From Verrucomicrobiota bacterium (GTDB lineage Bacteria > Verrucomicrobiota > Verrucomicrobiia > Opitutales > Opitutaceae): DNA of 64,000 nt. The notes below the pieces were generated by a model. It did not search any database. It was given only the letters and a program-made list of their open reading frames with translations, and was not told where the DNA came from. Location of the stretch: NCBI GenBank assembly GCA_016235555.1, contig JACRKC010000131.1, positions 62,001 to 126,000 of the forward strand. The letters run 5' to 3'. The translations under genes and the position numbers were made by a program. This document shows positions 14,701-36,031 of this stretch, in pieces (position 1 is the stretch's first letter; each line of letters starts with the position of its first letter).

Positions 14701-17700
14701 CGTGGAGGAATCGGAAGCAAAGACGTTGGTGGTGTCGCGATACGTGCGTTGCTTGATGCGCGCGCCATAGTCGTCGTAAACATAGGACACGGGATAGGTG
14801 CCGCTGCCCCAGACCGAATCGACTTCGCCGCGGGCCGTGTAGAGGGTGCGGGTGGTGCAATTGTTGGCGTCTTTCGAGAAAACTACCCGGCCGCTGCTGT
14901 CGTATTCCGAATAGGCGAGACGCTTCCCGGCGGCATCGGTCACCTCTTTCACCCAAGTGGTCGAGGGGTGATACGTCGTCGTGACCCGGCCCGTCCGCGG
15001 TTCGATCCGGCCCACGACCCGCCCCAGCGGATCGAACACCACACTCGTCGTGAGTTCGTCATGACTGGTGCTGGAAGCGGCCAGCCCGTTGACGGAGATT
15101 TCCACCTGATCTTTGGCGAGGCCCGGGCGGGTAGTTGTCGTGGTGACCTTCTTGTTATCCGCGTCGACCGTTACTTTGACTGTGGTCTCGTTGCCGGCGA
15201 TATCCGCGCTCACTTGTTCCGATCGCAGAGTCAGGGTGCGCCCGGTCAGACGGGTCTTCACAGTCGAGAGGGTGGTAGGCGTGCCGGAGTTGTCGACCGC
15301 ATAGGTCTTTTGCACCTTGGTCCGCCACCATCTGCTGTTGGTGTCAACGGTGAAGGTTTCGCTGAAATCAGTAATCCGATCCGTTGACGCTTCCGTGAGT
15401 GTATCGCTCCCATTCAAATCCAGGCCCGAACGAATCAACTGCGCCATGGAGTTGTAGGCATACAAGGTCGGCGCAAGAGCCGTCTTCTCGGTCTTCGTCA
15501 GCCAGCCCTTGGTGTTGTCGTAGGTGCGCGCCTCGTCCATGGCGGTCCCTCCGCTGCCTGTCGCCCCTTCAAATCGCGGCTGACGGGCTTTGACCACGCG
15601 GCCCAGCATGTCCACCCACGTCTCCCGCTTCCGATTGCTGGCCGACGTGGCGAGGTTCACGCTCGTGTAGCTCTGGCCGGAGGAGTTAACGTCGTAAGCG
15701 TAGTGTTCCGCCACCACGCCCGTGCCAGCGACGGACTTCTTTCGCCCGTCCAGATAGTTCTCCTCGATGCGGGTCGCACCACTGGGTAACGTGGCCGTAA
15801 CCCGGCGGCTGACAGGATCGTGATAATAAGTCGTTTTCGAAGGATTGGCTGTCGGCGACCCTGCGGTGGCAAATCCGGGCACGGTCTCCGCGATGAGGCG
15901 CCCCGTCGAGTCATAGGTGCGTGAAGTGACCAGCGTCTCGGCTGTCCCTACCCCGGACACCGTTTCTTTCAACACTCGCCCTGAATCGTCGTATTCGTAG
16001 GTGGTTGTTAGATCCGTGACCGTTACCCCAGCTGTGGTCGAACCCTTGCGTGTCTTGGTCTGCACGCGGTCATAGGCGTCGTAAGTGAATTCGGTCCGGA
16101 TGCCGTTCTCATCCACCGTCGCGGTCAAGCGGCCCGCCGTCCAGGTGTTTTGCACGACCGACCAGATGTTGCCGCTTCCAAGCACGCCGCTGTCTCGCGT
16201 CGTGTGATCCAGATAGAGGCCGCTGGTGTAGAAATTCACATCACGCTGGATGATGGTCCACGTCGGCGCCGAGGTGGTCCCGGTGCAGATCCAATCCTCC
16301 GTGCTGATTAACGTGCCGTCCGCCGCTGTGATCACGGCCTGTGCCGTCGAGATGCCGGGCACGATGCGGAACGAGCTTTCCGTCGACTGCGTCTGGTCGC
16401 CGCGGGTGTAGCTGGTCAAAGACGTGGATTCCGAGCCCGCGGTCGTGGTGCCGTTAAACGTCACCTTCATTAGGTCGGTGCCCGACTTGCTCCCGGTGAA
16501 GGCGCGGACCGAGTCGCCCCGGTCATAGCTTCCACGAAAATAAACCGTCACGGCCATCGTGCCGTCGGGCTTCTTGATGGAGTGCAAGAGCCCGCGGAAG
16601 AAGCGAAACTCGGGATCGCTGTCCTCCCGGAAAGTTTTCGCGACCGTCGTCAAGTAGTGGGTGGAGTCGGAATAATCTTTTCGCGTGTCAACATGCAGCG
16701 TCATCACTGCGTTCGAGCCTTGGTAATTGCGGGAGTAATCGGTAAGAGTCTCGGAGCTGTAATCGTGCACAACCTTGGCCGAGAGAACATTGTTCACCTT
16801 CGTTTCCGTGGACGCGGGAAGAAGGGCGCGGCCCGTCCAGTCGTAGGCATACGAATAGGTCGTAACCTCACCGGTGCTGGAGGATGCCTGCGAGGCAACG
16901 GCCGGCGAATTCATGAACGGTTTGTAAACTTGCAGATACTGGCCGGTTGAATCGAAATCCGAGGAGTATTCCATCTTGGTCCAGCCCCCGCCTTCAGTCG
17001 TTATGGTGCTGACCCGCTGGCTGTCGTAGGTGAACGTCTTGGTTGGGACGATGACCGGCAGCGTGCTGTCAAACCACGCACCGGCGATTCCCTTCAAGTC
17101 CTTGGCGAGTTCCGTCCCCCAGGAATAGCGTGTGTATTTGCGCTGGGTGTAGTCCGAACCGACCAACGTTGATTCCCAATAGTTGTCGGAGTCGACGGTC
17201 GCATAGTTCCACGTCTTGCGGAGCCCGGTCGTGCCCGATGTCGCCCAGTCGTTGACGATCGACTGATTGCTAATGCTGTTGTCCATCTCGGTGACGGTGG
17301 TGCGAGTTCCGTTCTGGCTCACCGTGCGGGTAATGCGCAGCTTGCCCGACGACGGACTCTCGATCTTGTAGTCGAGATAGGGGGTGCCTGAGACCCCGTA
17401 GACCCCGGAAGTCTTGGCCCCGATTTGACCACTGTCGCGCAGGTAAAACCTCAAGTGATAGGTCGTGCTATTGTCGGTGACGATGTCGACGAGACAACCC
17501 GTCGCATAGATCTGGCGGAACACCCCGGCAACCTTGATCGATTCGACTTCCGGGCTCGCATTGTCGTAGACCAGCGCCGCCGGGCTGAACACGGACATGG
17601 TGGTGTCGCGCAAGGCGATCGCGCCGGCGGTGGCGCCGTTGGAGAGCACGCCTAAGCCGACGGTCCAGACGATCCGCCCAGGCCGCAACGAGGAGGCTTC

Positions 17701-18141
17701 TCCGACGGCGAAGCGCTCGTCAGTCTCGACGCGCATTTTGAACCCCACGCTGGTGTTGGTGTAACCGCCCGGATTCACCACATCAATGCGACTGCGCAAC
17801 TGGTCGTTCAGGTAGACTCGATAACCCGGAGGCGCGGTAAACTGCACGGTGCAGCTGATGGCCTCAACAAAGTCGACCATGATCGTATAGTCTTGACCCG
17901 GCTTGAACGGGTTGGGCCCCGGGCCAAAGGAGTTGCCACCACCTGCCTGTGTGGCCCACGCACCACCGCCTGGACTGACAAATACGGCCCCGGAGGCCGT
18001 GCTGTCGAACCGTCCTTCAATCACAACGGGAACCGTAACGGCGTCCTTTTCCAAAATTTGGGCGGAAATCGGTCGCACGGCGAGAGACGCAAGCAACGCC
18101 CACGCGAAAATAGCCAGCCGCTGGAATTTCTTGCCACTCAT
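11734..18141 (-). CDS. Secreted RHS-repeat protein with a C-terminal metallopeptidase-like tip
   Basis: 2135 aa with a signal peptide (LAIFAWALLASLAVRPISAQ). A beta-rich N-terminal domain (to about 350) is followed by dozens of RHS/YD repeats (for example YDAYDRVQTKTRKG and YDSTGRLIAETVPG). The RHS core ends in YYGRRYYSPSQGRFLGRDP and NNNPLNRWDYLG at about residues 1795-1840. The variable tip (about 1845-2135) contains LAHETGHVLGY (His2078, Glu2079, His2082, Gly2085) and a DIMYF Met-turn-like segment at 2106-2110, as in metzincin-type zinc peptidases. The usual third ligand position is Arg2088, so the third ligand may be His2100. The tip DNA is AT-richer than the repeats. It overlaps the TPR gene by ATGA. 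It is probably a contact or exported polymorphic toxin; the export route beyond the inner membrane is unknown. Confidence 0.88.
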   Translation of the reverse strand: MSGKKFQRLAIFAWALLASLAVRPISAQILEKDAVTVPVVIEGRFDSTASGAVFVSPGGGAWATQAGGGNSFGPGPNPFKPGQDYTIMVDFVEAISCTVQFTAPPGYRVYLNDQLRSRIDVVNPGGYTNTSVGFKMRVETDERFAVGEASSLRPGRIVWTVGLGVLSNGATAGAIALRDTTMSVFSPAALVYDNASPEVESIKVAGVFRQIYATGCLVDIVTDNSTTYHLRFYLRDSGQIGAKTSGVYGVSGTPYLDYKIESPSSGKLRITRTVSQNGTRTTVTEMDNSISNQSIVNDWATSGTTGLRKTWNYATVDSDNYWESTLVGSDYTQRKYTRYSWGTELAKDLKGIAGAWFDSTLPVIVPTKTFTYDSQRVSTITTEGGGWTKMEYSSDFDSTGQYLQVYKPFMNSPAVASQASSSTGEVTTYSYAYDWTGRALLPASTETKVNNVLSAKVVHDYSSETLTDYSRNYQGSNAVMTLHVDTRKDYSDSTHYLTTVAKTFREDSDPEFRFFRGLLHSIKKPDGTMAVTVYFRGSYDRGDSVRAFTGSKSGTDLMKVTFNGTTTAGSESTSLTSYTRGDQTQSTESSFRIVPGISTAQAVITAADGTLISTEDWICTGTTSAPTWTIIQRDVNFYTSGLYLDHTTRDSGVLGSGNIWSVVQNTWTAGRLTATVDENGIRTEFTYDAYDRVQTKTRKGSTTAGVTVTDLTTTYEYDDSGRVLKETVSGVGTAETLVTSRTYDSTGRLIAETVPGFATAGSPTANPSKTTYYHDPVSRRVTATLPSGATRIEENYLDGRKKSVAGTGVVAEHYAYDVNSSGQSYTSVNLATSASNRKRETWVDMLGRVVKARQPRFEGATGSGGTAMDEARTYDNTKGWLTKTEKTALAPTLYAYNSMAQLIRSGLDLNGSDTLTEASTDRITDFSETFTVDTNSRWWRTKVQKTYAVDNSGTPTTLSTVKTRLTGRTLTLRSEQVSADIAGNETTVKVTVDADNKKVTTTTTRPGLAKDQVEISVNGLAASSTSHDELTTSVVFDPLGRVVGRIEPRTGRVTTTYHPSTTWVKEVTDAAGKRLAYSEYDSSGRVVFSKDANNCTTRTLYTARGEVDSVWGSGTYPVSYVYDDYGARIKQRTYRDTTNVFASDSSTWPGTGVAFDETTWEFDSYAGLLKKKTDAKGKFVEYDYNARGQISHRYWSRLTGSNRITATYSYFGDTSGDLLTGELKGISYNDSETPSVSYAYTRLGQPDTVIDALSTSSGDKRDFDYDSTYPTLLAKEKLPAFYDSRHLTRTYENSTNATTSPDFGQHTIGTVLRRIQGLKLGTSSTPAADLEFIYKTSNRGRVAGVVSERNSGAASREFKYGYEANSALLNALTVDTSHPFTVSRTFKSQQDLLVSVETKWNSATRTKFVYDYNDLRQRQSVVQSGDVFADYGGSGADLGAIHQIFEYNNRGELKTAATFMGSSPTDQSTPLSARKHQFAYDAIGNRTSSNTSGNANLADAYWTNSLNQYVARENNTLAVGGTSVPSATVAVGTEALDHAGRSGTSRHWGDNVIVDNATAPFAGKVKIFAAGTSSTGAIFTAERDAFLPPAYQEFTYDDDGNPINDSVWIYRWDAENRLIGVYTNPNLVGSSGPIPKAKARSLKFKYDYLGRRVQKEEFLWPDTATAYDTTATTTTRYLYDGWSVIAEFSVSGSSLTLARTYTWGLDIARTLTDAGGVGALLQIHDYASSGKDYFPAYDGNGNVAALFDADSSGGPCVAAYEYSPYGELLRCEGDYAKTNPYRFSTKTTDDETGLVYYGRRYYSPSQGRFLGRDPKEEKGGRNLYAFTNNNPLNRWDYLGMEPDYAPTYPDETATVLEEIGVNADGTPIITNVTYRAVRLADLNHQENGPADNDLIWIRDESGNRPAPWNRGMPEIGSTQPLPQVGSFQVGAVVSPTTIISPPSATPVRTRAITFRVGFDSSVTDTAKAIQGFNAQIAEMQTLFDANGLGSILLTYDLTGVTPTAPDAYDFSRLGMPAVTAAVNTQRPQVGSQPGVIPVLITNTPFVNAGSFVIGIGIKGVGLILRSSSIGVDLATLAHETGHVLGYVRDGGDPGSDLDRHSPSPTDIMYFKAMPNQNQIDFIYRNLMNDFAAPIR

Positions 18142-22319: not shown

Positions 22320-22601
22320 TCAGTAATCACGAGGAAGCAGGATGGTGGTGGCCGACCGATCCGCCTCGGTGATGATCCAGAATTTCACGCCGGCGGAGGT
22401 GCGATAAACCGAGAACAGGCGCGTGCCTTCGAGGAGGGCGCAGTCATTCAAGCCGCGATCCTCGGCGCAGACCTCGCCCCAGTCGCCGGAATGATGCCGT
22501 TGCAACGCACGAAGGATTTCCGAGTTCGGGATGGTCCCGATGGCATTGGGCGTGGCAAGGAGCCGCCCCAGGGGGAACTTGCCAGCAGGTGCAGCCATCA
22601 T
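22320..22601 (-). CDS. Small plasmid/ICE-associated protein
   Basis: About 93 aa. It matches a conserved accessory-element family: an N-terminal FPLGRLLATPNAIGTI segment, then LQRHHSGDWGEVCAED, and the ending FWIITEADRSATTILLPRDY. These small proteins occur with primases and other replication genes on plasmids and integrative elements; the function is not established. The start at 22601 overlaps the primase stop (ATGA), so the two are co-translated. The frame is open further upstream, but that part is arginine-rich shadow of the primase. Confidence 0.8.
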   Translation of the reverse strand: MMAAPAGKFPLGRLLATPNAIGTIPNSEILRALQRHHSGDWGEVCAEDRGLNDCALLEGTRLFSVYRTSAGVKFWIITEADRSATTILLPRDY

Positions 22602-23683
22602 GGCCGCACCCCCAGCAACTGCGCTTCCTCGGGGGTGAGCATCTCCGGCTGACAACCCTCCTGGTCGAAAGCCACGACGCGCACGAACGCCCTGGCCGCC
22701 AGGCGCCGCAACACTTCGTCCCGGCCTTCGCGGCCGGCGTCGTCTTCGTCGAACATCACGATGACCTGCGACGAAGCCGTGAGGTGCTGCGCGAGCAGCG
22801 CCTCTTGCGCCGCCGAGAGCGAACTGCCCATGAGGGCCACGCACTTCTTCACGCCGAGCTGCCAGAGTTTGATCACATCGAAAAATCCCTCGACAATCAC
22901 CAGCGGCAATTCCGGCGGTTCCTGCTTCGCTCGGGCGAGGTTGAACACCTCGACGGATTTTTTGAAGCCATCCGGCAGCCGATACTTGGGCCGTTCGTCC
23001 GGCGGGTGGCCGGGCCAGCGCCCCGCGTAGCCGACAAGTTCGCCGCCGACATTGTGAATCGGAATGGCGATCCGCTGGGCCATCACGCCCTTGGCGCAGA
23101 AGCCGAGCCCGAACTGTTGAATGGTCTCCGGCGTGAGCCCGCGTTCGACCAGATAGGGATGCGCCGCATCCAGTTCTAAATGGAAGCCCAACGGCTTGTT
23201 CACGCCGATCTCTTCCTTCGGCGGGCGCAAGGGTGAACCGTTCGGTTTCGGTCGCGGCGGGGGAGTGCGCAGTGGAAGCACGTCACCCCGCGGTGCGCCT
23301 TCGGCTGGTGCAACCCGACCGGTCGGTTCCGAATCCTCGGAATCATGCCCGGCATTGAGCACCGCGCGATCCAATTGAAACCATTCGACGAGCAGGTTGG
23401 CGGCCTGCATCGGCGCGACGTTCTCCTTCTTGGCGACGAAGTCCAAGACATTGCCGCCGCAGTGGCATTCGCTGAAGCAGTTCCAGCAATTCTTGCTGAT
23501 CGAAACCCGGAACTGCGTCGGGTTGGTGCCTTGGTGAATCGGGCACGGCCCGCTCAGGCTATCCTGACCGCGTTTGAACCGGTCGAGGATCCCGTAGTGA
23601 TCCAATACTTGCTCCATGGTAACGGCCGCTTTCACGGCACGAAAATCCACAAAGCGCGAGGGCTTGCGTTTGGGTGGGGACAT
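22598..23683 (-). CDS. CHC2 zinc finger / Toprim DNA primase of the element
   Basis: About 361 aa. The N-terminal CHC2 zinc-binding domain has Cys47, His50 and a cysteine cluster CWNCFSECHCGG (from Cys66). The Toprim domain contains LVIVEGFFD and MFDEDDAGREG, whose Glu and Asp residues hold the metal ions. It makes RNA primers, presumably for replication of the element. It is shorter than DnaG and lacks a recognisable helicase-binding domain. The ATG at 23683 has a good AGGAG ribosome site 6 bases upstream. A GC-rich hairpin (23724-23746) lies between it and the upstream gene. Confidence 0.9.
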   Translation of the reverse strand: MSPPKRKPSRFVDFRAVKAAVTMEQVLDHYGILDRFKRGQDSLSGPCPIHQGTNPTQFRVSISKNCWNCFSECHCGGNVLDFVAKKENVAPMQAANLLVEWFQLDRAVLNAGHDSEDSEPTGRVAPAEGAPRGDVLPLRTPPPRPKPNGSPLRPPKEEIGVNKPLGFHLELDAAHPYLVERGLTPETIQQFGLGFCAKGVMAQRIAIPIHNVGGELVGYAGRWPGHPPDERPKYRLPDGFKKSVEVFNLARAKQEPPELPLVIVEGFFDVIKLWQLGVKKCVALMGSSLSAAQEALLAQHLTASSQVIVMFDEDDAGREGRDEVLRRLAARAFVRVVAFDQEGCQPEMLTPEEAQLLGVRP

Positions 23684-23815
23684 TGTTGCTCCTGGGATGG
23701 GAATGAACCTGGCGGCCCGGAATGGGCGCGCCTTCCGCGCCCATCGTATCACCCCGCTTATGACACAGCAACGAATCCTGCCGTCCGCACCCTGCGCCCC
23801 GCGCCGATGCGGGCC

Positions 23816-24745
23816 TCAGGTTTCGCAGTTCGTTGATGCGCCCGGCGAACGGGGTGGTTCCCACATGGCCGCCGGCCGGCCCCGGCCGTCGAGCCACACC
23901 GGCCGGAATACGTCGGGCAAATTTCGGAGCGTCGCGATGTCCGTGAACAAGAACAGCCCGTGCCCGCGAGGCAGCTCGCGGCAGACGGCCGCCAGCCGCG
24001 CGGCCCGCTGGCTCGTCGTCGTGACCACGAGAACCCGCATCCGCTCGATCCCGTAGCGCTCCGCGGGCAGTTTCTTTTCCCAACACGCGGCGTAGGCGAG
24101 CAGCTTCCGCCAAACCGAAGTCTGGTGTAGCGAACGCCGGCGAATCGGCATCGTCGCGCGATCCGCCTCGACAAAGCAAAGGACGCGGTCGGAAGACTCA
24201 CGCGGGGCGAGCACAAAAAGGCCGTCCGGGACGAGTCCGACCCGAACGGTCGTTTGGCGATCGCGAACAGACACTTTCCAGTCCGGCCTCACCGCGGCCG
24301 TGATGGCCGGCGCTAACTCGACGCCGGGAACCAGCTGAGGCGCGAGAGGATCGTGGCACGCCTTTTCAAGCGCGAGCATCGCGTCGGCCACCAGCAACGT
24401 GTGCTGTAGGTAGAGTTGTTTGACGTTGCTGTTGTCGAGCCGGCGGGGCGACCGGCCGGTTTCCGCGATGGCTTGCGCGCCCGCCTGGGTCAGCGCATAG
24501 ACCAACGGCCGCGAGCCATCCGCGCTGAAGTAGTGCAGCTGGGCGCGCGGCCGGTCGACGTAACCATGGTGAAAAAGCCGCTGCAGACGCCTCAGCACGT
24601 GTTGTCCGCTGCCCGGAGTCACCGCCACGATCTGGCGCGAATGCAGGAACCGGTGGCGATCGATCTGCCGCAGCATTTCCAAGTCGCGCGGCGTGAGGCG
24701 CAGCGGCAGCGATTCCGGAACCCGGTGAAAGCGAGGAAGGCGCAT
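23816..24745 (-). CDS. Replication-relaxation family protein
   Basis: 309 aa. The N-terminal winged-helix part (LTPRDLEMLRQIDRHRFLHS) and the core (GAQAIAE, then YLQHTLLVADAMLALEKA) match the plasmid replication-relaxation family. The C-terminal half (FVEADRATMPI) looks like a degenerate restriction-endonuclease fold, as is common in the family. Such genes sit beside FtsK/VirD4-like ATPases on plasmids and integrated elements, as here, with 3 bp to the ATPase stop. They are thought to help replication or mobilisation; the mechanism is unknown. Confidence 0.85.
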   Translation of the reverse strand: MRLPRFHRVPESLPLRLTPRDLEMLRQIDRHRFLHSRQIVAVTPGSGQHVLRRLQRLFHHGYVDRPRAQLHYFSADGSRPLVYALTQAGAQAIAETGRSPRRLDNSNVKQLYLQHTLLVADAMLALEKACHDPLAPQLVPGVELAPAITAAVRPDWKVSVRDRQTTVRVGLVPDGLFVLAPRESSDRVLCFVEADRATMPIRRRSLHQTSVWRKLLAYAACWEKKLPAERYGIERMRVLVVTTTSQRAARLAAVCRELPRGHGLFLFTDIATLRNLPDVFRPVWLDGRGRPAAMWEPPRSPGASTNCET

Positions 24746-24748
24746 CGC

Positions 24749-26041
24749 TCAGGTGGACTGATTATAACCCGGATTGGACCGCCAGCGCCCAAGACGCGCC
24801 TCCACGAGCGCGCGCGGGCGCGCGTATTTTTCGCGGGACCGACGGCGCAGGGTTTCCCGGCGGGCATGGGGCGCCAAGGCGGGCAGCCCGGTCCGACCGC
24901 GAAACGGCTCCCATGGCGTGCCGTCACGCAGCGTGCGCACGAGGATTTCGAAGCGATCGAGGTCGGCGAACTGCTGCGGCGCAAACGCGCCCCCGAACTC
25001 CTCCGCCAGCACGCGGGCGTCGCTGAAGCCGACCCGGAACGCGACGAGTGTGCCGACGTTGCCGAACACCGCGGACCGGGTCTCCGGCGTGAGCTGGTCG
25101 AGATACTGGTGCGCCAGCGTGAGGCTCAGGCGGTATTTGCGGGCCTCGGCGAGCGCGGTCGCGAGACTGTCCGTCGTGAAGTTGTGGAATTCGTCGATGA
25201 CGAGGTTGAAGTCGCAACGCTCGGCCTCCGGCCGGTTCGCGCGGGTCATGGCCGCGTGCTGGAACTGCGCGGCGAGCAACGCGCCGAGCAGGTTCGCGGG
25301 TTCGGCGCCGAGCCGGCCCTTGCCGAGGTTCGCGATCAGCACCCGGCGGTGGTCCATCATGAACCGCAGGTCGACCTTGGGGCCGACCTGCCCGAGGATG
25401 TTGCGCAACAGGGGAGACAGGAGCAGTTGCCCGAGCTTGTTCTGGATCGGCGCGATGGCCTCCCGCAGGAACCGCGGATCGTAACGGGCGAACTCATCCG
25501 TCCAAAAAGCCCGCACGAACGGATCGCGCACCTGCCGCACGATCCACGCCCGATAGCCTTCGTCGGAGAGCATGCGGTTCACGCCGAGCAGGGAGGTGTT
25601 CTGCGCCTCAAGGAGCGCGGCGAGCGTGTGCGCGAGAATGTATTCGAGCCGCGGTCCCCATGAGTCGCGCCAGATGCTCTTGAACGCAGAAATGAGTCCC
25701 GCGGTGACCAGCGGGCGTTCGGCTGGCGGCACGTTGGCGAGCGGATTGAAGCCGACGGGGAAGTCGGCGTCCGCGGGATCGAAGTAGACCAAGTCATCCG
25801 CCCGGGCGGGTGGAAAATGATCGAGCAGTTCTTCCGCCAGGTCGCCGTGCGGATCGAGCAGCGCGACGCCTTGGCCCGCCGCGATCAATTGCAGGAGAAT
25901 AGATTTGAGGAGGGTTGTCTTGCCCGAGCCGGTCTGGCCCAGGATATAGGTGTGCCGGCGCGCGTCAGCAACGCCGAGGCCGAAGGGCACGTCGGCGCCG
26001 TAACTGTGGCGCTGGCCAAAATGGATGACGTCCGGGTTCAT
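24749..26041 (-). CDS. VirD4/TraM-like DNA-translocating ATPase (first of two)
   Basis: About 430 aa. Walker A is GQTGSGKTT (Lys at about 41) and Walker B is NLVIDEFHNF. LTLAHQYLDQL is the sensor-like segment that follows in the TraD/VirD4/HerA group, and FQHAAMTRANRPEAER precedes Walker B. It has no membrane helices, so it resembles cytoplasmic pumps rather than full coupling proteins. It probably moves or separates element DNA. I chose the ATG at 26041; another at 26176 in the same frame would add 45 residues of unclear coding value. It forms an operon with the replication-relaxation gene. Confidence 0.85.
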   Translation of the reverse strand: MNPDVIHFGQRHSYGADVPFGLGVADARRHTYILGQTGSGKTTLLKSILLQLIAAGQGVALLDPHGDLAEELLDHFPPARADDLVYFDPADADFPVGFNPLANVPPAERPLVTAGLISAFKSIWRDSWGPRLEYILAHTLAALLEAQNTSLLGVNRMLSDEGYRAWIVRQVRDPFVRAFWTDEFARYDPRFLREAIAPIQNKLGQLLLSPLLRNILGQVGPKVDLRFMMDHRRVLIANLGKGRLGAEPANLLGALLAAQFQHAAMTRANRPEAERCDFNLVIDEFHNFTTDSLATALAEARKYRLSLTLAHQYLDQLTPETRSAVFGNVGTLVAFRVGFSDARVLAEEFGGAFAPQQFADLDRFEILVRTLRDGTPWEPFRGRTGLPALAPHARRETLRRRSREKYARPRALVEARLGRWRSNPGYNQST

Positions 26042-26382
26042 GGTGGCGGAGCCAGTCGCGACTCCGTAAACGCAAACGCCGCCCCGTATCGTTTGGCGGC
26101 GTTCAGCATTGCTTCCGGCAAACGTGGTGGAACGAGCCGGCAGGGTAATCGCGACTGGCTGCGAGATCCGAACCATGGCCAGTATAGCAGGGAGTGAAGC
26201 CGTCGGCGAAAGGATGACACCTGCCGTTTCCCCGAAACCGTGGAGGAGTGTGGCGGGCACCAAGCGGTCGGACGGGTTTGGCGATCTGCGCGCAGCGCAG
26301 CCGAGCCAAATCCGCGCGTCCGCGACTGCCCGCAATTTTGGTTCTTTTTCCAAAAGAAGGGAGGAGCAGAGGGTCGCGCGTT

Positions 26383-26627
26383 GAGCTCGCTGTGAGCCGA
26401 AGCCACGAGGAGCGCAGGCGGATGCTGGCCGCTCGGGGACAGGAGACCGCCCAGCGACGAAGGGCGGAGGGGAACAAGAGCGAAACCCGCGACATTCTGC
26501 GGGCGGGCCACGTCGTCGCTCCGGGCCGCGGACCGCGCGGCGCGTTTTCCAAATGGTGGCTAAGTAAAGCCGTCGTCCGCCGTGGTGGTGGAACCCGTCG
26601 TCGCGGTAGCGCGGTCGTGCAGTCGTG
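26383..26627. other. Gene-free stretch upstream of the ATPase operon
   Basis: Open frames here are arginine/proline-rich in every reading and have no recognisable domain, so I see no gene. It may hold leader or promoter sequence for the minus-strand operon. Confidence 0.4.
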
Positions 26628-26768
26628 CCCCCACAGGTGAGGACGAAGGCGGTTAGCCGGGCGGCCGACTTCGCGCGGTTTGGTGTGCAGCCGGCCGGCT
26701 AGGTCGGACCTCACCCGGTAGCCGCAGGAAAACGCGCGAAGTCGGGCGCGAGCCCGAACCTGTGGGGG
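26628..26768. ncRNA. Highly structured candidate RNA or DNA hairpin
   Basis: The ends form an 11-bp perfect stem (CCCCCACAGGT 26628-26638 with its complement 26758-26768). A second perfect 13-bp stem is nested inside (26665-26677 with 26733-26745). Between these lie two more perfect palindromes (AGCCGGCCGGCT 26689-26700; AGGTC/GACCT 26701-26711) and a GGGC-GAGCCC hairpin (about 26743-26755). A pseudoknot-like pairing is possible (about 26650-26661 with 26713-26724). It has no coding signal. It could be a regulatory RNA on either strand or a folded single-strand DNA site (oriT or a priming site). I recognise no named family. Confidence 0.5.
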
Positions 26769-26822
26769 AACCCGTGGCGGCTCAATCGAGCCGTGGTAGC
26801 CGGATACGGCGGGCGCTAGCCC

Positions 26823-27104
26823 CGACAAACCATGTTTGTCGCCTCGTATGTCGTGTCGCACATTCGCACTTTTGCGACACACTTTTTCTCGTTCGTCAAG
26901 GGGGTGTCCTTCATAGCGATGATCGATGAACGAATAACCACTGCGAGTTATCCACAGTGGCGTTTCTCCTTTTTCAAAGGAATCCGGTAACTGAATATTG
27001 TTAATACTGTATATTCTTCTATAGAGTGATTTCAGCGGGCTGAAGTCCGGATGTCAGCCCGCTGAAGTCTTGATTTTACCCTGTTAAAGTCTGGATTTTA
27101 CTGG
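26823..27104. other. Probable replication origin of the element
   Basis: In order: a hairpin CGACAAA/TTTGTCG (26823-26841); a hairpin GTGTCGCA/TGCGACAC (26853-26880); a DnaA-box consensus match TTATCCACA (26948-26956) inside a CCACTG/CAGTGG inverted repeat; an AT-rich stretch (about 26988-27030); and three directly repeated 22-bp iterons starting at 27039, 27061 and 27083 (core GCTGAAGTC or GTTAAAGTC then GATTTTA). A perfect 12-bp inverted repeat (27032-27043 with 27054-27065) overlaps iterons 1 and 2. A Rep-like HTH gene ends 8 bp away. This is the classic layout of an iteron-controlled plasmid origin. Confidence 0.7.
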
Positions 27105-27111
27105 GTCGATT

Positions 27112-27462
27112 TTAAGCCGTCTTTCCGCGACCCACCTGAAAGTGGACGGTGTAGAGGTTGGTTTTCCCCAGCCCGCGGCGTTTGATCGAGATAAATCCAT
27201 GCTTGGCGAGTTCCGCCGTGAAGTTGGATACGCTGGGCACGCTCATGCCCAAATCTGCCGCCAGGCGCTCTTGGCCGGGGAAGCAGAGGTCGTTGTGCCA
27301 CGCGTAGGACAAAAACATCGCATACGTCAATTTTGCGCCAATGGAGAGCCTTGTATCACGCAGCACGAAGTTGGGCACCTGCGTGAAGCCGAGTTGGATG
27401 ACCGGATCGACGCTGTCCAGTTGGATGTTCTTTTCGCGTATGACCTCGGCGATGGTTTTCAT
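27112..27462 (-). CDS. Rep-like winged-helix DNA-binding protein
   Basis: 116 aa. The central part (GAKLTYAMFLSYAWHND, then RLAADLGMSVPSVSNFTAEL and HGFISIKRRGLGKTNLY) is a winged helix of the kind found in small plasmid replication initiators and DnaD-like proteins. The gene abuts three 22-bp iterons, which are its likely binding sites. It is shorter than most Rep proteins, so it may be a regulator of replication instead of a full initiator. ATG at 27462; downstream HicBA is separate. Confidence 0.75.
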   Translation of the reverse strand: MKTIAEVIREKNIQLDSVDPVIQLGFTQVPNFVLRDTRLSIGAKLTYAMFLSYAWHNDLCFPGQERLAADLGMSVPSVSNFTAELAKHGFISIKRRGLGKTNLYTVHFQVGRGKTA

Positions 27463-27537: not shown

Positions 27538-27765
27538 TCACAACAACGCGCGGAATTCGTCCTCGGTAAAACCGAGCTGCGCGACAATCTGCATCAGCAT
27601 GCCGCGCCGCAAATCCCGGCTATGCAGGGAAAGCGTGGCTTGCCGCTCCTTGAGCGGATGGTAAAGAAACGCGTGGCTGCCGGTCTGGCGTTTGATGACG
27701 CAGCCGGCGCGAAGCAGGATTTTGAGGAGTTGTTTGTCGGTCAGCGTCGGCAGGCGGTCGGTCAT
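27538..27765 (-). CDS. hicA: HicA-type mRNA interferase toxin
   Basis: 75 aa. The double-stranded-RNA-binding-like fold of HicA is shown by KQLLKILLRAGCVIKRQTGSH followed by FLYHP. The His of GSH is the catalytic residue known from the family. HicA cleaves mRNA and stops growth until HicB binds it. The start at 27765 overlaps the HicB stop (ATGA). It probably stabilises the integrated element. Confidence 0.92.
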   Translation of the reverse strand: MTDRLPTLTDKQLLKILLRAGCVIKRQTGSHAFLYHPLKERQATLSLHSRDLRRGMLMQIVAQLGFTEDEFRALL

Positions 27766-28010
27766 GCCAGTGCCGGCAAACGCACGTCGATCCGCACGGC
27801 GGCGGTCCTTTCCCGCTCCACCGGGATCGGTTTTCCAATTTTCATCATGCCTTCGAGGTAGCAAAGGATCGCATCCTTGGCCATCGCCACGGCGTCCTCG
27901 TAGGTGTCGCCTTGCGTTAGGCAGCCCGGCAACGCGGGCACGGACACGACATATCCGCCTTCCTCTGCCGGCTCCAGCGTGACGGTGTAGCTATATTGGC
28001 GCTCTTGCAT
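27762..28010 (-). CDS. hicB: HicB-type antitoxin
   Basis: 82 aa. The partial RNase H-like fold of HicB is clear: YSYTVTLEPAEEGGYVVSVP, then PGCLTQGDTYEDAVAMAKDAI. It binds and neutralises HicA. It has no separate DNA-binding domain, so control of the pair may depend on another factor. The order is antitoxin first, toxin second. ATG at 28010 with the toxin overlapping its stop. Confidence 0.93.
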   Translation of the reverse strand: MQERQYSYTVTLEPAEEGGYVVSVPALPGCLTQGDTYEDAVAMAKDAILCYLEGMMKIGKPIPVERERTAAVRIDVRLPALA

Positions 28011-28055
28011 GGATATTATTTTACCATGCGTGCGGTGACCGTCAACCACCCCGGA

Positions 28056-28799
28056 TTACGCCGCGTGTGGTATCGGCTGATCGGTTGCCGTGGGCGCGTC
28101 GTGGTTGCCAGCGTTGTTACCAAACCCGTCGCCTTGGTTATCAGCGTGGTTACCAGCCGGGGTGTTTTGGTTACCAACGTCGTTAACAGATTTGCGAGTT
28201 TGGTTGCCATCTTCGGTCACAACCTCGGCGAGGTCGGTCTTGCCGCCGGTCAGCCGGAGCAAATTTTGAATCTGATCTGCCTGCTTCACGGTCTGGCCGA
28301 TGAGCTTTAGGTTCGTGTCGCTGAGGCTGCGGTTTTGCTCCGTGAGTTCGCGAATCTGGCCGTCTTTCACCTGCACCTGCGACTTGAGTAGGTCGATCAT
28401 CTCGCGCTCCAAGCCGGGCACGGCGGGCTTGGTTTCAGGCAGGGAGGAGGGCTTGGTATCAACCGCTGGCGGTTGGTGAACAAAAGGCGGTGGCTTGGTT
28501 ACCGATTCGTTAACCAACGGCGGCGTTTGGTTACCAAGGTTGGTAGCCATCGACTCGGGGTTGGTAACCGTGCCGGGCGGCGCCGTGGGTTTGGACGCGG
28601 GTTTTAGGCCGGTCTCGCGCATGAAACTGATGGGATTGACGCGCCAGAGAAAGTGCTGGTCGTCGACGAATTCGTCGCGGCGGTAGTCGGTGTTTTCAGC
28701 AAATTTGGCGGCCTGCACGAGCTGCCGCAGCCGGTAACGGATCACGCGGGAGGGAATGTCGAATTGGCGCGATAGCTCGTGGATCGTGAGGAACTCCAT
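28056..28799 (-). CDS. KfrA-like DNA-binding coiled-coil protein
   Basis: 247 aa. An N-terminal HTH (LTIHELSRQFDIPSRVIRYRL) is followed by a Pro/Thr/Asn-rich linker, a coiled coil (about 133-185, REMIDLLKSQVQVKDGQIRE and on) and an Asn/Gly-rich tail. The tail is a tandem 11-residue repeat (GNQTRKS..., GNQNTPA..., DNQGDGF..., GNHDAPT...). This architecture recalls plasmid KfrA proteins, which bind DNA and help segregation. The gene itself holds 15 copies of a GGTNACC-like DNA site (see repeat entries). A palindrome upstream (28822-28840) may be its operator. Function is inferred from architecture. Confidence 0.75.
   Translation of the reverse strand: MEFLTIHELSRQFDIPSRVIRYRLRQLVQAAKFAENTDYRRDEFVDDQHFLWRVNPISFMRETGLKPASKPTAPPGTVTNPESMATNLGNQTPPLVNESVTKPPPFVHQPPAVDTKPSSLPETKPAVPGLEREMIDLLKSQVQVKDGQIRELTEQNRSLSDTNLKLIGQTVKQADQIQNLLRLTGGKTDLAEVVTEDGNQTRKSVNDVGNQNTPAGNHADNQGDGFGNNAGNHDAPTATDQPIPHAA
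28083..28208. repeat. GGTNACC site array, first cluster (8 copies)
   Basis: Heptamers like GGTTACC, GGTTGCC or CGTTAAC start at 28083, 28103, 28115, 28136, 28148, 28169, 28181 and 28202. After the first step of 20 bp, the gaps alternate 12 and 21 exactly, giving a 33-bp unit. The flanks between heptamers diverge while the heptamers stay. It lies inside the 3' part of the KfrA-like gene. Confidence 0.8.
28455..28569. repeat. GGTNACC site array, second cluster (7 copies)
   Basis: Heptamers start at 28455, 28475, 28497, 28508, 28529, 28542 and 28563, with gaps 20, 22, 11, 21, 13 and 21. Here the motif falls in two different codon registers (GTT-ACC-AAC as Val-Thr-Asn, and GGT-AAC-CAA as Gly-Asn-Gln), so the DNA word is kept while the peptide changes. 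Confidence 0.75.
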
Positions 28800-28840: not shown

Positions 28841-29385
28841 GTAAATTTTGTGATGACCATGAGGTGTCCAAGCAATGATACCGGTTGCCCCATTCCTTAC
28901 AACAGCATGGCCCGTTCAGTCCAGAATTTGCCACTCTCGCACTACCAAGTCCCTGTTCGCGCGCGGCGGTGCGGCGGGCACCAGTCGTCGCGTGGGTCAC
29001 GCGCCACCAGCGCCAGTTCAAACATCTTCAGACAGGCGGACCAGCGCCGGAAATCCTCTTGCGCCACCTGTGGCTAGGACGATGACCAAACCACCGAGAG
29101 GGATTCACGGACCGGTCAGCTCGTCTTTCGCCCACGCAGGTGGGGTATTGACAGTGTCTTTGCCGAGCGTATTGTCGCTTAAGTCAAACAAGAGAGATGT
29201 CTCTCCTCTCTCTTTTTTCCGTTAATCGAAAACCGCATACGCACCTGCCCTTGTTCATTAATACATTTGATGCAATAATGGATAGGGCTTTTATACGATA
29301 ATCAAAAGGCCAAAATGGACAGCAACTAATTTCGAAAACCCCGCCAATTTAAGGCGGGGTTTTTGATTTCCTGTAGAGGTTAATC
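28841..29385. other. Gene-free stretch with promoter- and terminator-like signals
   Basis: No credible gene. It has TTGACA (29148-29153) and, 16 bp later, TATTGT, a good plus-strand promoter. About 25 bp after that comes a GAGAGA/TCTCTC hairpin (29192-29205) followed closely by T6. A second AT-rich promoter-like region lies at 29268-29300. A strong terminator (29336-29364) then precedes the next gene. A very short transcript or attenuation is possible. Confidence 0.4.
29336..29365 (+). terminator. Strong Rho-independent terminator / attenuator
   Basis: The stem AAACCCCGCC (29336-29345) pairs with GGCGGGGTTT (29353-29362) and continues into T5. It sits 20-50 bp before the ATG of the next plus-strand gene, so it either ends an upstream short RNA or attenuates that gene. 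Confidence 0.85.
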
Positions 29386-31404: not shown

Positions 31405-34400
31405 ATGAACGGCATCTCGGAACGGCGCTCCGCCCAATTCCTCCAATGGGAAGCGCGCGGGCGCGGGTTCCGCCTCTGGCCCGCACCGGTGTGGCCGGAG
31501 CCGCCGTTTGAGCCGTTCGGCGTTCGCGGGCACACCACCCCCGAACCCATCGACGACGGACGGCGGCCCACGCTCCTCAGCGCGGCGTTCCAAAAAATGA
31601 TCGGGCGCCTCGCCCCGTCCCCGCCGGGTCCGGAACCGGACCCCGAACCCGACGAAGCCACCCCGCGCCCGCTGGTGCGCCACGAACTCGTGGAACTGCA
31701 AGCCCACATTCCGCCGCGGCTCGACTTCGATGCCGGGCGCTACGCCCGCCTCTTCGGCAGCCTCGCCGTGTGTGCTGAACCCATCGTCTTTGAACTGCTC
31801 GCCACCGGCGAACGTGTGACGACGCAGTTCGCCGTGCATCCACAGGACGAACGTCTCGTCCTGCGGCAGCTCAACGCATTCCTGCCCGACGTGTCGTTCT
31901 TATCTACTCGCGGAACGCTGCCACGCGCCTGGGGCGAGCCCGGCGAAGCAGAAACCGCCATCGTCGACTTCGGCCTCGGCCGCGAGTTCCTCCTCCCATT
32001 CCAACCGACCCGCGGCGATCCCTTCACCGGCCTCGTCGGCGCCCTGTCCGAAATCGACCCCGGCGAGACGGCCCTCGTGCAGGTCATCTTCTGTCCCGCG
32101 ACCGCCCCGTGGCATGAAAGCATCCTGCGCTCGGTCACCCACGCGGACGGCAGCGCGATGTTCATCAACGCGCCGGAACTCCTGCCCGGTGCGAAGCAGA
32201 AAACCGCGGAACGCCTGTTCGCCGCCGTCGTGCGCCTGGCGACCCGCTCGCCCGTATCGGAACGTGCCTGGGAAATCGCCCTCCAAGTCGGCGGAGCGCT
32301 TGGTTCCTTCGCCTCGGTCACCGGCAACGAACTCGTCCCCCTCGTCAACGACGGCTATCCAAGCGACGAACACGAAACGGACATCCTCGCGCGCCAAACG
32401 CGGCGCTCCGGAATGCTGCTCACTGCCAGCGAACTCGCCGGCTTCGTGCATGTGCCGTCCGCGGAAGTCCAGTCAGCCCGCCTCCGCATGGAAGACGAGC
32501 GGACCAAAGCCGCGCCGGCCACCGTGCGGGACACGCGCGGCCTGCGCCTCGGCCTCAATCGTCACGCCGGCCTCGAAACCCCCGTCCATCTCTCACGCGA
32601 GGCGCGAGTCCGGCACCTCCATCTCATCGGGGCCAGCGGCACGGGCAAATCGAGCCTGCTCTATAATCTGATCACCCAGGGGATCGAACGCGGCGAAGGT
32701 GTCTCGGTGCTCGATCCGCACGGCGACCTGATCGACCGCCTCCTCGGCGCAATCCCCCCGGCACGTCGGCGGGATGTCGTCTTGCTCGACCCCTCGGATG
32801 AGGAAAGTGTCGTCGGGTTCAACATCCTGGCCGCGCATACCGAGGCGGAGAACAACCAGCTGGCCTCGGACCTGGTCGCGGTGTTCCGGCGACTCTCGTC
32901 CGCGTGGGGCGATCAATTGAACAGCGTCCTCTCGAACGCACTCCTCGCCTTTATGGAAAGCGAGCGCGGCGGCACGCTGATCGATCTCCGGCGCTTCCTC
33001 CTCGAACCCGCCTATCGGAACGACTTTCTCTCGACGGTCCGCGACCCGAATATCGTCTATTACTGGCGCAAGGCGTTCCCCGCGCTCACCGGCAACAAAT
33101 CCATCGGCCCGGTCGTCACCCGGCTCGACACGTTCCTGTCACCGAAAGCCATCCGGCGCATGGTCGGCCAGCGCGCAAACCGGCTCGACTTCGGCGACAT
33201 CATGGACGCTGGCCGCATCTTTCTCGCCAAGCTCTCGCACGGCGCCATCGGCAAGGAGAACTCGCACCTGCTCGGGAGCCTCATCGTCGCCAAAATCCAA
33301 GCCGCCGCGATGCGCCGGCAGAACCAACGCGAAACCGCACGCCGCGATCATTTTCTCTGTGCCGACGAGTTCCACGACTTCCTAACACCTTCGCTGGCCG
33401 AGTGCCTCTCGGGCGCACGCAAATACCGCCTCGGCCTCGTGCTCGCTCATCAAGAGATGCGCCAAGTCGAGCGCGACGCCGACGTGGCGAGTGCCCTGCT
33501 CGGCGCCGGCACGCGCATTGTGTTTCGCGTGAACGACCGGGACGCGAAGTCCCTCGAAGCCGGCTTCGCCTCTTTCGAGGCACGCGACATTCAGAATCTC
33601 GGCGTCGGCCGCGCGATCTGCCGGGTCGAGCGCAGCGATGCCGACTTCAACCTCACTGTCGATCCGCCGCACTTTCCCGACGACGACTCTGCCCGGTTCG
33701 CCCGAGAGCAGGTCATTGCCGCCTCCCGGGCCAGCTACGGCACGCCAAGAGCGGAAATCGACCGCCTGCTCGCCGAGGCCGCAGTCGTCGAATCCCCGCC
33801 CAAGCCCCCCGTTGAGCCGAAACCGCCCGCATCTGCCGACGTTGTTACCAAAATCGCGCCGTTGGTTGACCACGTGGCAACCAACCCGCCGTCAGCGCCC
33901 CATGAACCCGCACCGCCTGTTCCCATGGCGTCCGCGCCGCCCAGCGCAGAAAACAAGCCGACCCCGCCGGTGGCAGACCTGGGCCGCGGGGGAGCGCAAC
34001 ACCAAGCGATCCAGAATCGCCTCAAGGACGAGGCCGAAAAGCTCGGATTCCACGTCACGTTGGAAAAGGAAGTCCTCGGCGGAGCAGGGGACATCGATCT
34101 CGTGCTCACCCGCGACAGCGAGTCCATCGCATGCGAGGTGACGGTGACGACGACGATCGACCATGAAATCGGCAACGTCGCCAAATGCCTCAAGGCCGGC
34201 TTCACGCACGTCGTGTTGATCGCCGGCACCGCCGACAAAGCGGAAAAGCTCCGCGCCGCCGTCCTCGCCAGTTTCGGCGCCACCAAGGCCGCGGGCGTGA
34301 GTTGTTTTCTGCCCGACCCATTCATCGATTATCTCCGCGATCTGCCGCGCGCCCAACCCGCGTCGGCCGCCCGCCGCTCGCGCGCGGGTCGCACCGTGAA

Positions 34401-34506
34401 GACTTCGCGTGTCGCGCTTTCGCCGGAGGAGGCCAAGGCCCGCGAGGCCGACGCGATCAAGCTCATGGCGGAGACGATGCGAAAGAAAAAGCGCGGCGCG
34501 CCGTGA
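31405..34506 (+). CDS. Large VirD4/HerA-like ATPase fused to a PD-(D/E)xK-like domain (second of two)
   Basis: 1033 aa. An N-terminal domain (1-390) precedes the motor. Walker A is GASGTGKSS (Lys415) and Walker B is FLCADEFHDF (about 654). LVLAHQEMRQV follows, as in the TraD/VirB4/HerA group. A proline-rich linker (about 790-870) contains three GGTNACC-like DNA sites. The C-terminal domain (about 870-1010) has GDIDLVLTRDSESIACEVTV, in which Asp898 and Glu911 fit a restriction-endonuclease-like fold, although the usual Lys is replaced by Thr913. No membrane helices are seen. It probably pumps or processes element DNA. It is the plus-strand counterpart of the 430-aa ATPase of this element. Confidence 0.85.
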   Translation: MNGISERRSAQFLQWEARGRGFRLWPAPVWPEPPFEPFGVRGHTTPEPIDDGRRPTLLSAAFQKMIGRLAPSPPGPEPDPEPDEATPRPLVRHELVELQAHIPPRLDFDAGRYARLFGSLAVCAEPIVFELLATGERVTTQFAVHPQDERLVLRQLNAFLPDVSFLSTRGTLPRAWGEPGEAETAIVDFGLGREFLLPFQPTRGDPFTGLVGALSEIDPGETALVQVIFCPATAPWHESILRSVTHADGSAMFINAPELLPGAKQKTAERLFAAVVRLATRSPVSERAWEIALQVGGALGSFASVTGNELVPLVNDGYPSDEHETDILARQTRRSGMLLTASELAGFVHVPSAEVQSARLRMEDERTKAAPATVRDTRGLRLGLNRHAGLETPVHLSREARVRHLHLIGASGTGKSSLLYNLITQGIERGEGVSVLDPHGDLIDRLLGAIPPARRRDVVLLDPSDEESVVGFNILAAHTEAENNQLASDLVAVFRRLSSAWGDQLNSVLSNALLAFMESERGGTLIDLRRFLLEPAYRNDFLSTVRDPNIVYYWRKAFPALTGNKSIGPVVTRLDTFLSPKAIRRMVGQRANRLDFGDIMDAGRIFLAKLSHGAIGKENSHLLGSLIVAKIQAAAMRRQNQRETARRDHFLCADEFHDFLTPSLAECLSGARKYRLGLVLAHQEMRQVERDADVASALLGAGTRIVFRVNDRDAKSLEAGFASFEARDIQNLGVGRAICRVERSDADFNLTVDPPHFPDDDSARFAREQVIAASRASYGTPRAEIDRLLAEAAVVESPPKPPVEPKPPASADVVTKIAPLVDHVATNPPSAPHEPAPPVPMASAPPSAENKPTPPVADLGRGGAQHQAIQNRLKDEAEKLGFHVTLEKEVLGGAGDIDLVLTRDSESIACEVTVTTTIDHEIGNVAKCLKAGFTHVVLIAGTADKAEKLRAAVLASFGATKAAGVSCFLPDPFIDYLRDLPRAQPASAARRSRAGRTVKTSRVALSPEEAKAREADAIKLMAETMRKKKRGAP
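33843..33882. repeat. GGTNACC sites inside the ATPase gene (3 copies)
   Basis: TGTTACC at 33843, GGTTGACC at 33864 and GGCAACC at 33876 have gaps of 21 and 12 bp, the same spacing as the array in the KfrA-like gene. They lie in the proline-rich linker of an unrelated protein. Confidence 0.65.
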
Positions 34507-34549: not shown

Positions 34550-36031
34550 ATGAAGGAGGACCGTCACCGAGCCGCCAAGGATGTGGGAATCTGGATACGT
34601 GTGTCCACGGACGAGCAGGCGAAAGGCGATTCTCCGGAGCATCATCGGGTCCGGGCGCAGAGCTATGCCGAGGCGATGGGGTGGACCGTCTCCACGGTTT
34701 ACGATCTCGCCGGGGTCTCGGGCAAGACCGTGATGGATCACCCCGAGTGCCGGCGGATGATGGATGACGTTCGCGCGAAGCGCATCACGGGGCTCGTGTT
34801 CTCGAACCTGATGCGGCTGTGCCGCAACAAACGCGAACTGGAGGACTTCGCGGCCTTCTTTCGCGACCAAGACGCGGACTTGGTCTCGATTCAGGACGCC
34901 ATCGACACGTCGACGCCCGCGGGGCGGATGTTTTTCACCTTCCGGGCGGCGCAGGCCCATTGGGAACGTGAGGAAATCTCCAGCCGGGTCGCCGTGTCCG
35001 TGCCCATCCGCGCCAAGCTCGGCAAACCCCTCGGCGGCATCGCACCCTACGGCTACCGATGGGAAGGGAAGAATCTCGTCATCGAGCCGACGGACGCCGC
35101 CGTGCGCAAACTCATCTATGAATTGTTCGCGGAGCATAAGCGGATCAAGACAGTCGCGCAGATTTTGAACGACCGTGGTTATCGCACCCGCGACCGCGCC
35201 AACGTCAAAGGCGGCCTCTTTTCCGGCACCGCAGTGCAACGCATCATCGAGGACACCTCGGCGAAAGGCGAATATCGGCGCAACCATACCCGGAGCCTCG
35301 GCGCCAAGCAGGGTTGGAAAGTGAAGCCGGAGCACGAATGGATCATCAATGCCATCGAGCCCATCGTGTCCGTCGAGTTGTGGGACAAGTGCAACGCGCT
35401 GCTCGAAGCCCGCCAGACCAAGCGCGCGCGGCCCGCGAAACGGGGCCGGGGGGTGTTTTCGGATTACGTGTTCTGCTCGTGCGGCAAGAAGATGTATTTT
35501 CCCCAGAACACGCCGAAATGGGTCTGCCGGCCCTGCAAGAACAAGATTCCCGTCGCCGACCTCGAGGCCGCCTTCCTGGATGAAATCCGCGGCTTTATGG
35601 TCTCCGCCGAGAAGGTCACCGGCTACCTCGCTTCCGCCCAAACCGGGCTGGCGGAACGCCGGGCGGCCCTCGAAACGCTCCGCAAAGAGAAGGACAAGGT
35701 AAAGCGGGAGGCGGACAAGTGCTTCGAACTTTACGAGGCCGGAGCGCTCACCGTGCCGCAGTTCAAGGAACGATTCCAACCCCTCGATGCCCGCCGACAC
35801 CAAATCGAGCGGGAGATTCCCCGGATCGAAGCTGAGATCAGCGCGCAATCGACTGACGGTGTCTCCCTCGAACACGTCGCCGCCGAAGCCCGGAACTTCT
35901 GCGACAACTGGCCAAAGCTCCCCGAGGATCGGAAACGTCAGATTGTCGACGTGTTCCTAAAAAGGATTGTCGTCAGTTCCGACGAAGTGAAAATCGAGGT
36001 CTTCAATCTTCCCGCGTTCGCAAACAGCTAA
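34550..36031 (+). CDS. Large serine recombinase (integrase) of the element
   Basis: 493 aa. The resolvase domain opens with GIWIRVSTDEQ, in which Ser19 is the nucleophile; RMFFTFRAAQAHWEREEIS belongs to the same domain. The recombinase domain (GIAPYGYRWEG onward) and a zinc ribbon (CSCGKK...CRPCKN) follow, then a coiled coil (about 360-420). Such enzymes integrate or excise elements between short att sites without a host factor. It lies at the right end of the element, as usual for integrases. No direction factor gene is obvious. Confidence 0.93.
   Translation: MKEDRHRAAKDVGIWIRVSTDEQAKGDSPEHHRVRAQSYAEAMGWTVSTVYDLAGVSGKTVMDHPECRRMMDDVRAKRITGLVFSNLMRLCRNKRELEDFAAFFRDQDADLVSIQDAIDTSTPAGRMFFTFRAAQAHWEREEISSRVAVSVPIRAKLGKPLGGIAPYGYRWEGKNLVIEPTDAAVRKLIYELFAEHKRIKTVAQILNDRGYRTRDRANVKGGLFSGTAVQRIIEDTSAKGEYRRNHTRSLGAKQGWKVKPEHEWIINAIEPIVSVELWDKCNALLEARQTKRARPAKRGRGVFSDYVFCSCGKKMYFPQNTPKWVCRPCKNKIPVADLEAAFLDEIRGFMVSAEKVTGYLASAQTGLAERRAALETLRKEKDKVKREADKCFELYEAGALTVPQFKERFQPLDARRHQIEREIPRIEAEISAQSTDGVSLEHVAAEARNFCDNWPKLPEDRKRQIVDVFLKRIVVSSDEVKIEVFNLPAFANS

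Follow-up and report, generated by a model that had tools for sequence, protein, structure and literature searches.

What is a gene for whose coding sequence carries, in two clusters, palindromic DNA words resembling GGTNACC at regular steps of about 12 and 21 bp, and what reads these words? This question is raised by a gene in a 64,000-nucleotide stretch of DNA from a Verrucomicrobiota bacterium (hereafter, the window, meaning the whole stretch that was analysed). The sequence-only reading had proposed that the words are either the centromere of a mobile element or an autoregulatory array for the encoded protein, and this still appears to be the best pair of readings. The gene comprises, in order, a winged helix (approximately aa 1-66), a first linker, a coiled coil, and a second linker, with the following features:

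28056..28799, minus strand: array gene, 247 aa (ORF list, five-gene alignment, and AlphaFold model)
28590..28799, minus strand: predicted winged helix, with helices 6-13 and 17-29, strands 36-39 and 51-54, and helix 56-63 (models and weak fold matches)
28455..28569: word cluster of linker 1, between the HTH and the coiled coil, 7 heptamers
28248..28415, minus strand: predicted coiled coil (aa 129-184), conserved and with few words (model and alignment with the paralog C51)
28083..28221: word cluster of linker 2 (the C-terminal linker, towards the 3' end of the gene), 8 heptamers plus GGTCACA at 28215

All 15 heptamers reported earlier for this gene were located at the positions that the reported steps imply. 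Those of linker 2 start at 28083, 28103, 28115, 28136, 28148, 28169, 28181, and 28202, with steps of 20, 12, 21, 12, 21, 12, and 21 bp, and those of linker 1 at 28455, 28475, 28497, 28508, 28529, 28542, and 28563, with steps of 20, 22, 11, 21, 13, and 21 bp. Their description as GGTNACC holds exactly for five of the 15, with one mismatch for seven and with two mismatches for three (28181, 28455, and 28508). The two codon registers, read as Val-Thr and Gly-Asn, were borne out: the 54 linker words of five array genes were divided between them (30 and 24), with none in a third register, which would place TNA in frame, a stop codon if N is A or G. Base counts around these 54 words suggest a longer palindrome, approximately YYGGTNACCAA. 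Over the whole window, exact GGTNACC occurred 30 times, as compared to 11.0 ± 3.3 in shuffles; this excess is not evidence for the array, because only five of the 30 exact words lie inside the gene.

The genome itself holds two paralogs of the array gene, C51 (71% identity) and C138 (46-47%), and a scan of genome contigs yielded two further relatives, L004 from an Opitutaceae MAG (46%) and L005 from an Opitutae MAG (55%, for residues 1-99). In L005, the frame reaches the contig end, and a coiled coil was unmatched in the available part. Kinship with the genome of L004 places the host in the Opitutaceae. In the head of the gene, identity was 88% between the window copy and C51, 74% between C138 and L004, and 56-61% for the other pairs. 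The array was present in all five genes found, from three genomes, with 9-16 words per gene. Matches to the array gene in 252 family genomes numbered three, corresponding by coordinates to the own genome and to the L004 and L005 loci, while only the own genome matched among 57 related genomes. Three matches were obtained from 387 phylum genomes; two of these, G170 and G214, were weak stretches of 40 residues in ORFs that appeared to be in the wrong frame, and were set aside. No relative of the array protein was detected in the viral contigs or plasmids searched. The array-gene family is rare in the genomes searched.

The regularity of the array was quantified by counting lattice pairs, defined as two words of at most one mismatch that are 11-13, 20-22, or 32-34 bp apart. 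The window gene contained 16 words and 21 lattice pairs; its 500 dinucleotide shuffles held 3.5 words and 0.13 pairs on average and never more than 10 and 3, respectively. The best 24 of 3275 segments (744 bp each, from three gene-family contigs, ~330 kb) all overlapped the three array genes of this genome. When 64 palindromic heptamers were scored on the five genes, GGTNACC ranked first with 68 pairs, the runner-up reaching 13. Pooled pair distances in the five genes peaked at 12, 21, 33, 45, 54, and 66 bp. Within clusters, adjacent steps fell on the lattice in 41 of 50 cases, versus 8.8 ± 2.6 under random placement (maximum 19, n = 5000). Exact word pairs 3-18 bp apart are a poor array detector, since genome-wide they were found at 10 places versus 5 for a reversed control, and a single one of the 10 belonged to an array. 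When palindromes of any sequence were scanned blindly for the 12/21 spacing, low-complexity DNA dominated, and the window array was absent from the 40 rows listed; the only useful lead was L026, described below. An association of half-site flavour with the array-gene tree gave p = 0.03, a post hoc value from one of six tests to which no weight is given.

Is it the DNA word or the peptide that is conserved? The claim, made from the window alone, that it is the DNA word is well supported by the four relatives and by a synonymous-recoding test. Recoding of the five genes according to host-contig codon usage gave 13.9 ± 4.5 lattice pairs (maximum 37) versus the 68 observed, and 34.3 words versus the 65 observed; neither observed value was reached in 2000 recodings. 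The lattice had been proposed from the window gene, and the other four genes test it separately: each passed on its own (0, 0, 0, and 1 of 2000 recodings reached the observed number of pairs), the five genes being homologous and therefore not fully independent samples. Because recoding loses lattice pairs and GGTNACC stands out among the 64 palindromes, the DNA itself is conserved, and selection on the DNA rather than on the peptide of the linkers is well supported. Plain word counts were weaker evidence: when the own codons of each gene were shuffled, p values for words were 0.07 (window), 0.04 (C51), 0.015 (C138), 0.0015 (L004), and 0.04 (L005); for exact words, they were 0.01, 0.04, 0.13, 0.24, and 1.0, respectively, L004 having one exact word and L005 none (degenerate words). 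Gly codons in front of Asn were GGT in 10 of 15 cases, as compared to 7 of 41 for Gly codons elsewhere in the five genes and 13% for the host contigs.

Between the window gene and C51, its closest paralog, identical residues numbered 29 of 60 in one linker and 28 of 52 in the other, versus 59 of 68 in the HTH and 58 of 64 in the coiled coil. This is the opposite of the refuting case, an Asn-rich peptide that is kept while the word is lost: the linkers diverge and the words stay. At the codon level, the comparison pointed in the expected direction only: of the linker sites inside words, 25 of 34 had the same third base in both genes, and of the remaining linker sites, 45 of 78 did. Among neighbouring words in different registers and less than 40 bp apart, 21 of 25 were separated by 11, 13, 20, or 22 bp (the rest by 1, 10, 32, and 34 bp); that spacing modulo 3 tracks the register is arithmetic, and the informative part is the closeness to the 12/21 step despite the register change.

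The encoded protein is predicted to combine a MerR-like winged helix with a coiled coil and disordered segments, the fold matches being weak. The AlphaFold prediction (five sequences) placed helices at residues 6-13 and 17-29, a wing, a helix at 56-63, disorder at 72-125, a helix at 129-184, and disorder thereafter. The full model had a mean pLDDT of 61 and a pTM of 0.28, with high values for helix 129-184 and a pLDDT below 50 for residues 191-247; modelled alone, the winged-helix head reached a pLDDT of 79. Matches of the head to known folds were weak: a viral DNA-packaging protein (Z 5.7, best VIA), BldC (Z 5.4), the partition protein 3ez9 (Z 5.0), excisionases (Z 4.3-5.0), RacA (Z 4.9), and pSK1 Par on centromere DNA (8csh_A, Z 4.7, 50 residues at 2.5 A), unrelated winged helices scoring about as high as all of these; the best Foldseek match had an E value of 0.64. 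Such matches weakly suggest a common fold and indicate no function. A sequence search against the PDB gave a best E value of 0.21. The gene had been called KfrA-like, a name that fits its layout (a predicted N-terminal HTH followed by a long coiled coil) and not its profile, as no KfrA family was recovered in the Pfam scan (E <= 0.1).

The array gene heads a module that runs from hicB to the primase, and the element further carries a second ATPase and a large serine integrase:

27762..28010, minus strand: hicB-like antitoxin (PF15919, E 2.5e-14; start placed by eye, at an ATG within the listed ORF)
27538..27765, minus strand: hicA toxin (PF07927, E 1.7e-13; start set by eye at an internal ATG)
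27112..27462, minus strand: HTH_36 protein resembling the DNA-binding part of O/RepA-type initiators (PF13730; PHROGs replication initiation families)
24749..26353, minus strand: VirD4/TraD/HerA-like ATPase (PF01935, PF10412)
23816..24745, minus strand: Replic_Relax protein (PF13814, E 3.3e-22)
22598..23752, minus strand: DnaG-type primase (CHC2 zinc finger, Toprim)
31405..34506, plus strand: second, larger TrwB-like ATPase (PF10412; relatives on C51, C138, and L005)
34550..36031, plus strand: large serine integrase (PF00239, PF07508; relatives on C51, C138, and L005)

In four of the five loci (window, C51, C138, and L004), the array gene is followed by hicB, HTH_36, the VirD4/HerA-like ATPase, Replic_Relax, and the primase, the last of these extending to the locus end in L004. 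A hicA gene was matched in the window, C51, C138, and L005, with none listed for L004. L005 is organised differently: the opposite strand carries hicBA together with the second ATPase and the integrase, and among the matches listed for the 6.6 kb compared, none was to HTH_36. Judging from their sequences, the second ATPase and the large serine integrase mark an integrative element, integration being assessed by eye in the window copy. In the own genome, Replic_Relax is encoded three times, once for each array gene. The HTH_36 proteins of C51 and C138 (loci L010 and L015) were 96% identical, versus 43% for their array genes; the units of the element have therefore been reshuffled. No ParA/ParM-like NTPase was found among the module proteins scanned.

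Relatives of HTH_36 were more widely distributed, in 17 viral loci, 9 of 387 phylum genomes, and 5 of 372 order genomes (the own genome counting once in each genome set), as well as in 9 plasmid and 16 phage records. A tblastn search with the HTH and coiled coil of the array protein against the collected loci from L026 on hit two own-genome loci only, so that, at this sensitivity, the array gene was present in none of the 17 HTH_36 viral loci. The module ATPase had no relative in viral contigs; distant relatives were found in six plasmid records, and such a module was absent from the two that were inspected. To our knowledge, the mobile elements of this bacterial group have been little studied.

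Taken together, we tentatively favour, at somewhat less than an even chance, a self-encoded binding array that would maintain the element in the manner of a centromere and, secondarily, repress its own gene. The parts of this reading differ in strength. That the lattice is a protein-binding array is very probable; that the encoded protein is its ligand is, from the architecture, a reasonably likely assignment; and segregation or tethering as the main role is, by analogy, a possibility that we would put forward with reserve. In such a mechanism, the two disordered linkers would be written in codons that spell the protein's own site, a palindrome of approximately YYGGTNACCAA on a 12/21-bp lattice. 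The protein, presumably as a dimer, would load on the lattice palindromes, and its coiled coils would bridge neighbouring sites, yielding one compact nucleoprotein complex. This complex would anchor or segregate an excised, replicating form of the element, and the bound array may also dampen its own operon. Three elements with the same word reside in one genome, which counts against a plasmid-type partition site, because their free forms would be incompatible; that no NTPase was found among the proteins scanned also speaks against a classical partition site.

The strongest competitor, a serious alternative that we consider less probable, is an operator array, in which the protein bound to the intragenic words would mainly repress or silence its own gene and the hicBA-HTH_36 genes downstream, with segregation uninvolved. 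An exact GGTNACC word (28034-28040) lies, as an operator would, inside the spacer of a promoter-like sequence before hicB:

28018..28045, minus strand: sigma-70-like promoter sequence before hicB, TTGACG-16-TAAAAT (scan for promoter-like sequences; three such sites in that stretch versus 1.3 expected in shuffles)

Three of the five genes also had words with 0-1 mismatch in the 60 bp before the start codon, little over background, and C51 and L005 had none upstream. Against the operator array, most words lie in the gene body, in two clusters ~230 bp apart, which exceeds the needs of repression. A precedent is KfrA of RA3, which has an N-terminal HTH, a long coiled coil, and a role in stability; it recognises five 9-bp repeats in an operator overlapping its promoter, this binding being described as needed for its role in plasmid maintenance (PMC7783346). 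The array words, by contrast, are intragenic, and the array gene lacks a match to the KfrA profile.

Less probable still, though also a serious alternative, is a replication origin, the words being iterons of a lambda-type origin or a handcuffing copy-control locus, bound by HTH_36 or by the array protein. Lambdoid origins, as described, sit in the O gene, with iterons within the gene of the DNA-binding protein, and to that extent resemble the array gene (PMC7466680). The module encodes an O-like wHTH protein, a primase, and Replic_Relax. Here, in contrast to lambda O, the O-like protein is encoded by a separate gene with a candidate origin of its own, and the array gene, which had no HTH_36 or initiator match, carries another HTH. 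The candidate origin lies just 3' of HTH_36:

26948..27094, minus strand: candidate oriV, with short palindromic iterons, an AT-rich tract, and a perfect DnaA box (26948-26956)

These features were observed next to HTH_36 in four loci, the DnaA box being perfect in the window, C51, and C138 and having one mismatch in L004. The maximal AT content over 30 bp was higher in the HTH_36 flank than in the array gene at each of the four loci (0.83 versus 0.63, 0.80 versus 0.70, 0.83 versus 0.57, and 0.70 versus 0.53). On the other side, the C51 array gene has the highest value in the range for array genes (0.53-0.70), and the L004 array gene holds a DnaA box with one mismatch. The flanks of the window and L004 loci have the half-sites TTCAGC/GCTGAA, plus one GCTGAC in the window; those of C51 and C138 have GTCAGC/GCTGAC. 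The recognition helix of HTH_36 is split in the same way (SVPSVSNF in the window and L004, SRTSVTAF in C51 and C138), unlike the pairing of the array genes, a comparison of two against two loci in which the C51 and C138 HTH_36 proteins are nearly identical. As it is the flank half-sites, and not the array genes, that split like HTH_36, this protein is a poorer candidate for the GGTNACC ligand and was down-weighted on these sequence grounds. With the candidate origin features beside HTH_36 and away from the array, the array is left free for another job. The origin reading is kept alive by L026, in which the words lie in an initiator gene: this HTH_36-type, O-like initiator from a different family of the phylum (286 aa, minus strand of the locus) has GGTTACC words at 1265-1409, in steps of 6, 12, 18, and 36 bp within its own gene and with 11 of 12 in one register, and is perhaps a lambda-type intragenic origin.

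Only a slight chance can be given to a transfer site, i.e., an array serving as the accessory-protein binding region of an oriT. VirD4-like ATPases and Replic_Relax in the module would suit such a site; against it, no nick-site evidence emerged, and strong conservation was seen elsewhere, at about 26600-26870 on the ATPase side. That stretch (26600-26870, minus strand), between the candidate oriV and the ATPase, was conserved in four loci and contains small inverted repeats. It is possibly an oriT, a small ORF, or an RNA; an Rfam search gave nothing near the gathering score. Finally, an 11-residue peptide repeat, arising from a 33-bp duplication and having no DNA function, with selection on the peptide or none, would account for the unit of 11 codons, for the predicted disorder of the linkers, and for 13.9 of the 68 pairs, and is highly improbable in view of two registers near the same lattice, the diverged linker peptides, and the outcome of synonymous recoding.

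For the favoured reading, a self-encoded, centromere-like maintenance site, partial counterparts can be found among known systems. The sites of pSK1 Par lie outside the coding region, whereas the array words lie inside theirs. Sequence similarity between pSK1 Par and the array protein was not found in the PDB sequence search. Both RacA and pSK1 Par are described as having a three-part layout of wHTH, coiled coil, and disorder; pSK1 Par, a staphylococcal single-protein partition system, shares with the prediction for the array protein a wHTH, a central coiled coil, and a disordered C-terminus, and RacA, the chromosome anchor of B. subtilis, combines a MerR-type wHTH, a coiled coil, and disorder with repeated centromere-like targets (PMC11500499). 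The sites of RacA are on the nucleoid, as opposed to a compact array in the protein's own gene. In SCP2 ParT/parS, the centromere site is within the coding sequence of its own binder, as in the array gene; that system, as described, uses a single 18-bp inverted repeat, sliding, and ParA (PMC12260392), whereas here the 9-16 words per gene are ordered and no ParA was found among the proteins scanned. A search of the open-licence literature turned up no account of an ordered array of several sites within a gene for a coiled-coil wHTH protein; the nearest cases were lambda O and SCP2 parT. Intragenic sites are thus precedented by these two, and what looks new is the arrangement, with an ordered two-cluster array in a gene for a coiled-coil protein.

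If the favoured reading is true, the array would be a compact stretch of DNA with two codes, in which words shift register while the lattice is kept, and would offer a testable system for the upkeep of an element by a single protein without a known NTPase. It also suggests a route to unrecognised centromeres, through ordered palindromes in the linkers of coiled-coil genes. A general class of self-addressed wHTH/coiled-coil maintenance genes of mobile elements, in which the disordered linkers are mainly coding space for the gene's own sites, protein and centromere are passed on together as a single inseparable gene, and word and HTH co-evolve, is a more doubtful extension.

A locus that may bear on such a class is L039, a 4-kb viral contig in which a relative of HTH_36 (58% over 71 residues) directly follows a gene at 184-1104. 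By eye, this gene encodes an HTH and a coiled coil, and it had no significant similarity to the array gene. It contains GGCRNCGCC words, with four pairs 19 bp apart and in two registers. In own-codon shuffles, 10 pairs were observed versus 1.3 expected (0 of 2000), and with the looser GGCNNNGCC, 10 versus 3.3 (35 of 2000). L039 is suggestive only as a second array case, the word and distances having been picked after looking. A different palindrome beside an HTH_36 relative is expected if the word follows the HTH of the neighbouring gene itself. Were this so, L039 would be a second, independent self-addressed gene. The L039 ORF appears to run into what is presumably phage-head-like sequence, and the contig may be chimeric. 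The L039 protein had no relative in plasmids and matched only itself in viral contigs.

Two further observations were made in the window. A strong terminator-like hairpin of 14 pairs (29332-29366, plus strand) lies upstream of a 268-aa ORF at 29386, which had no Pfam match. In addition, judged by eye, an ORF of 2135 aa (11734-18141, minus strand) is YD-repeat/RHS-like and has a C-terminal HETGH metalloprotease-like stretch.
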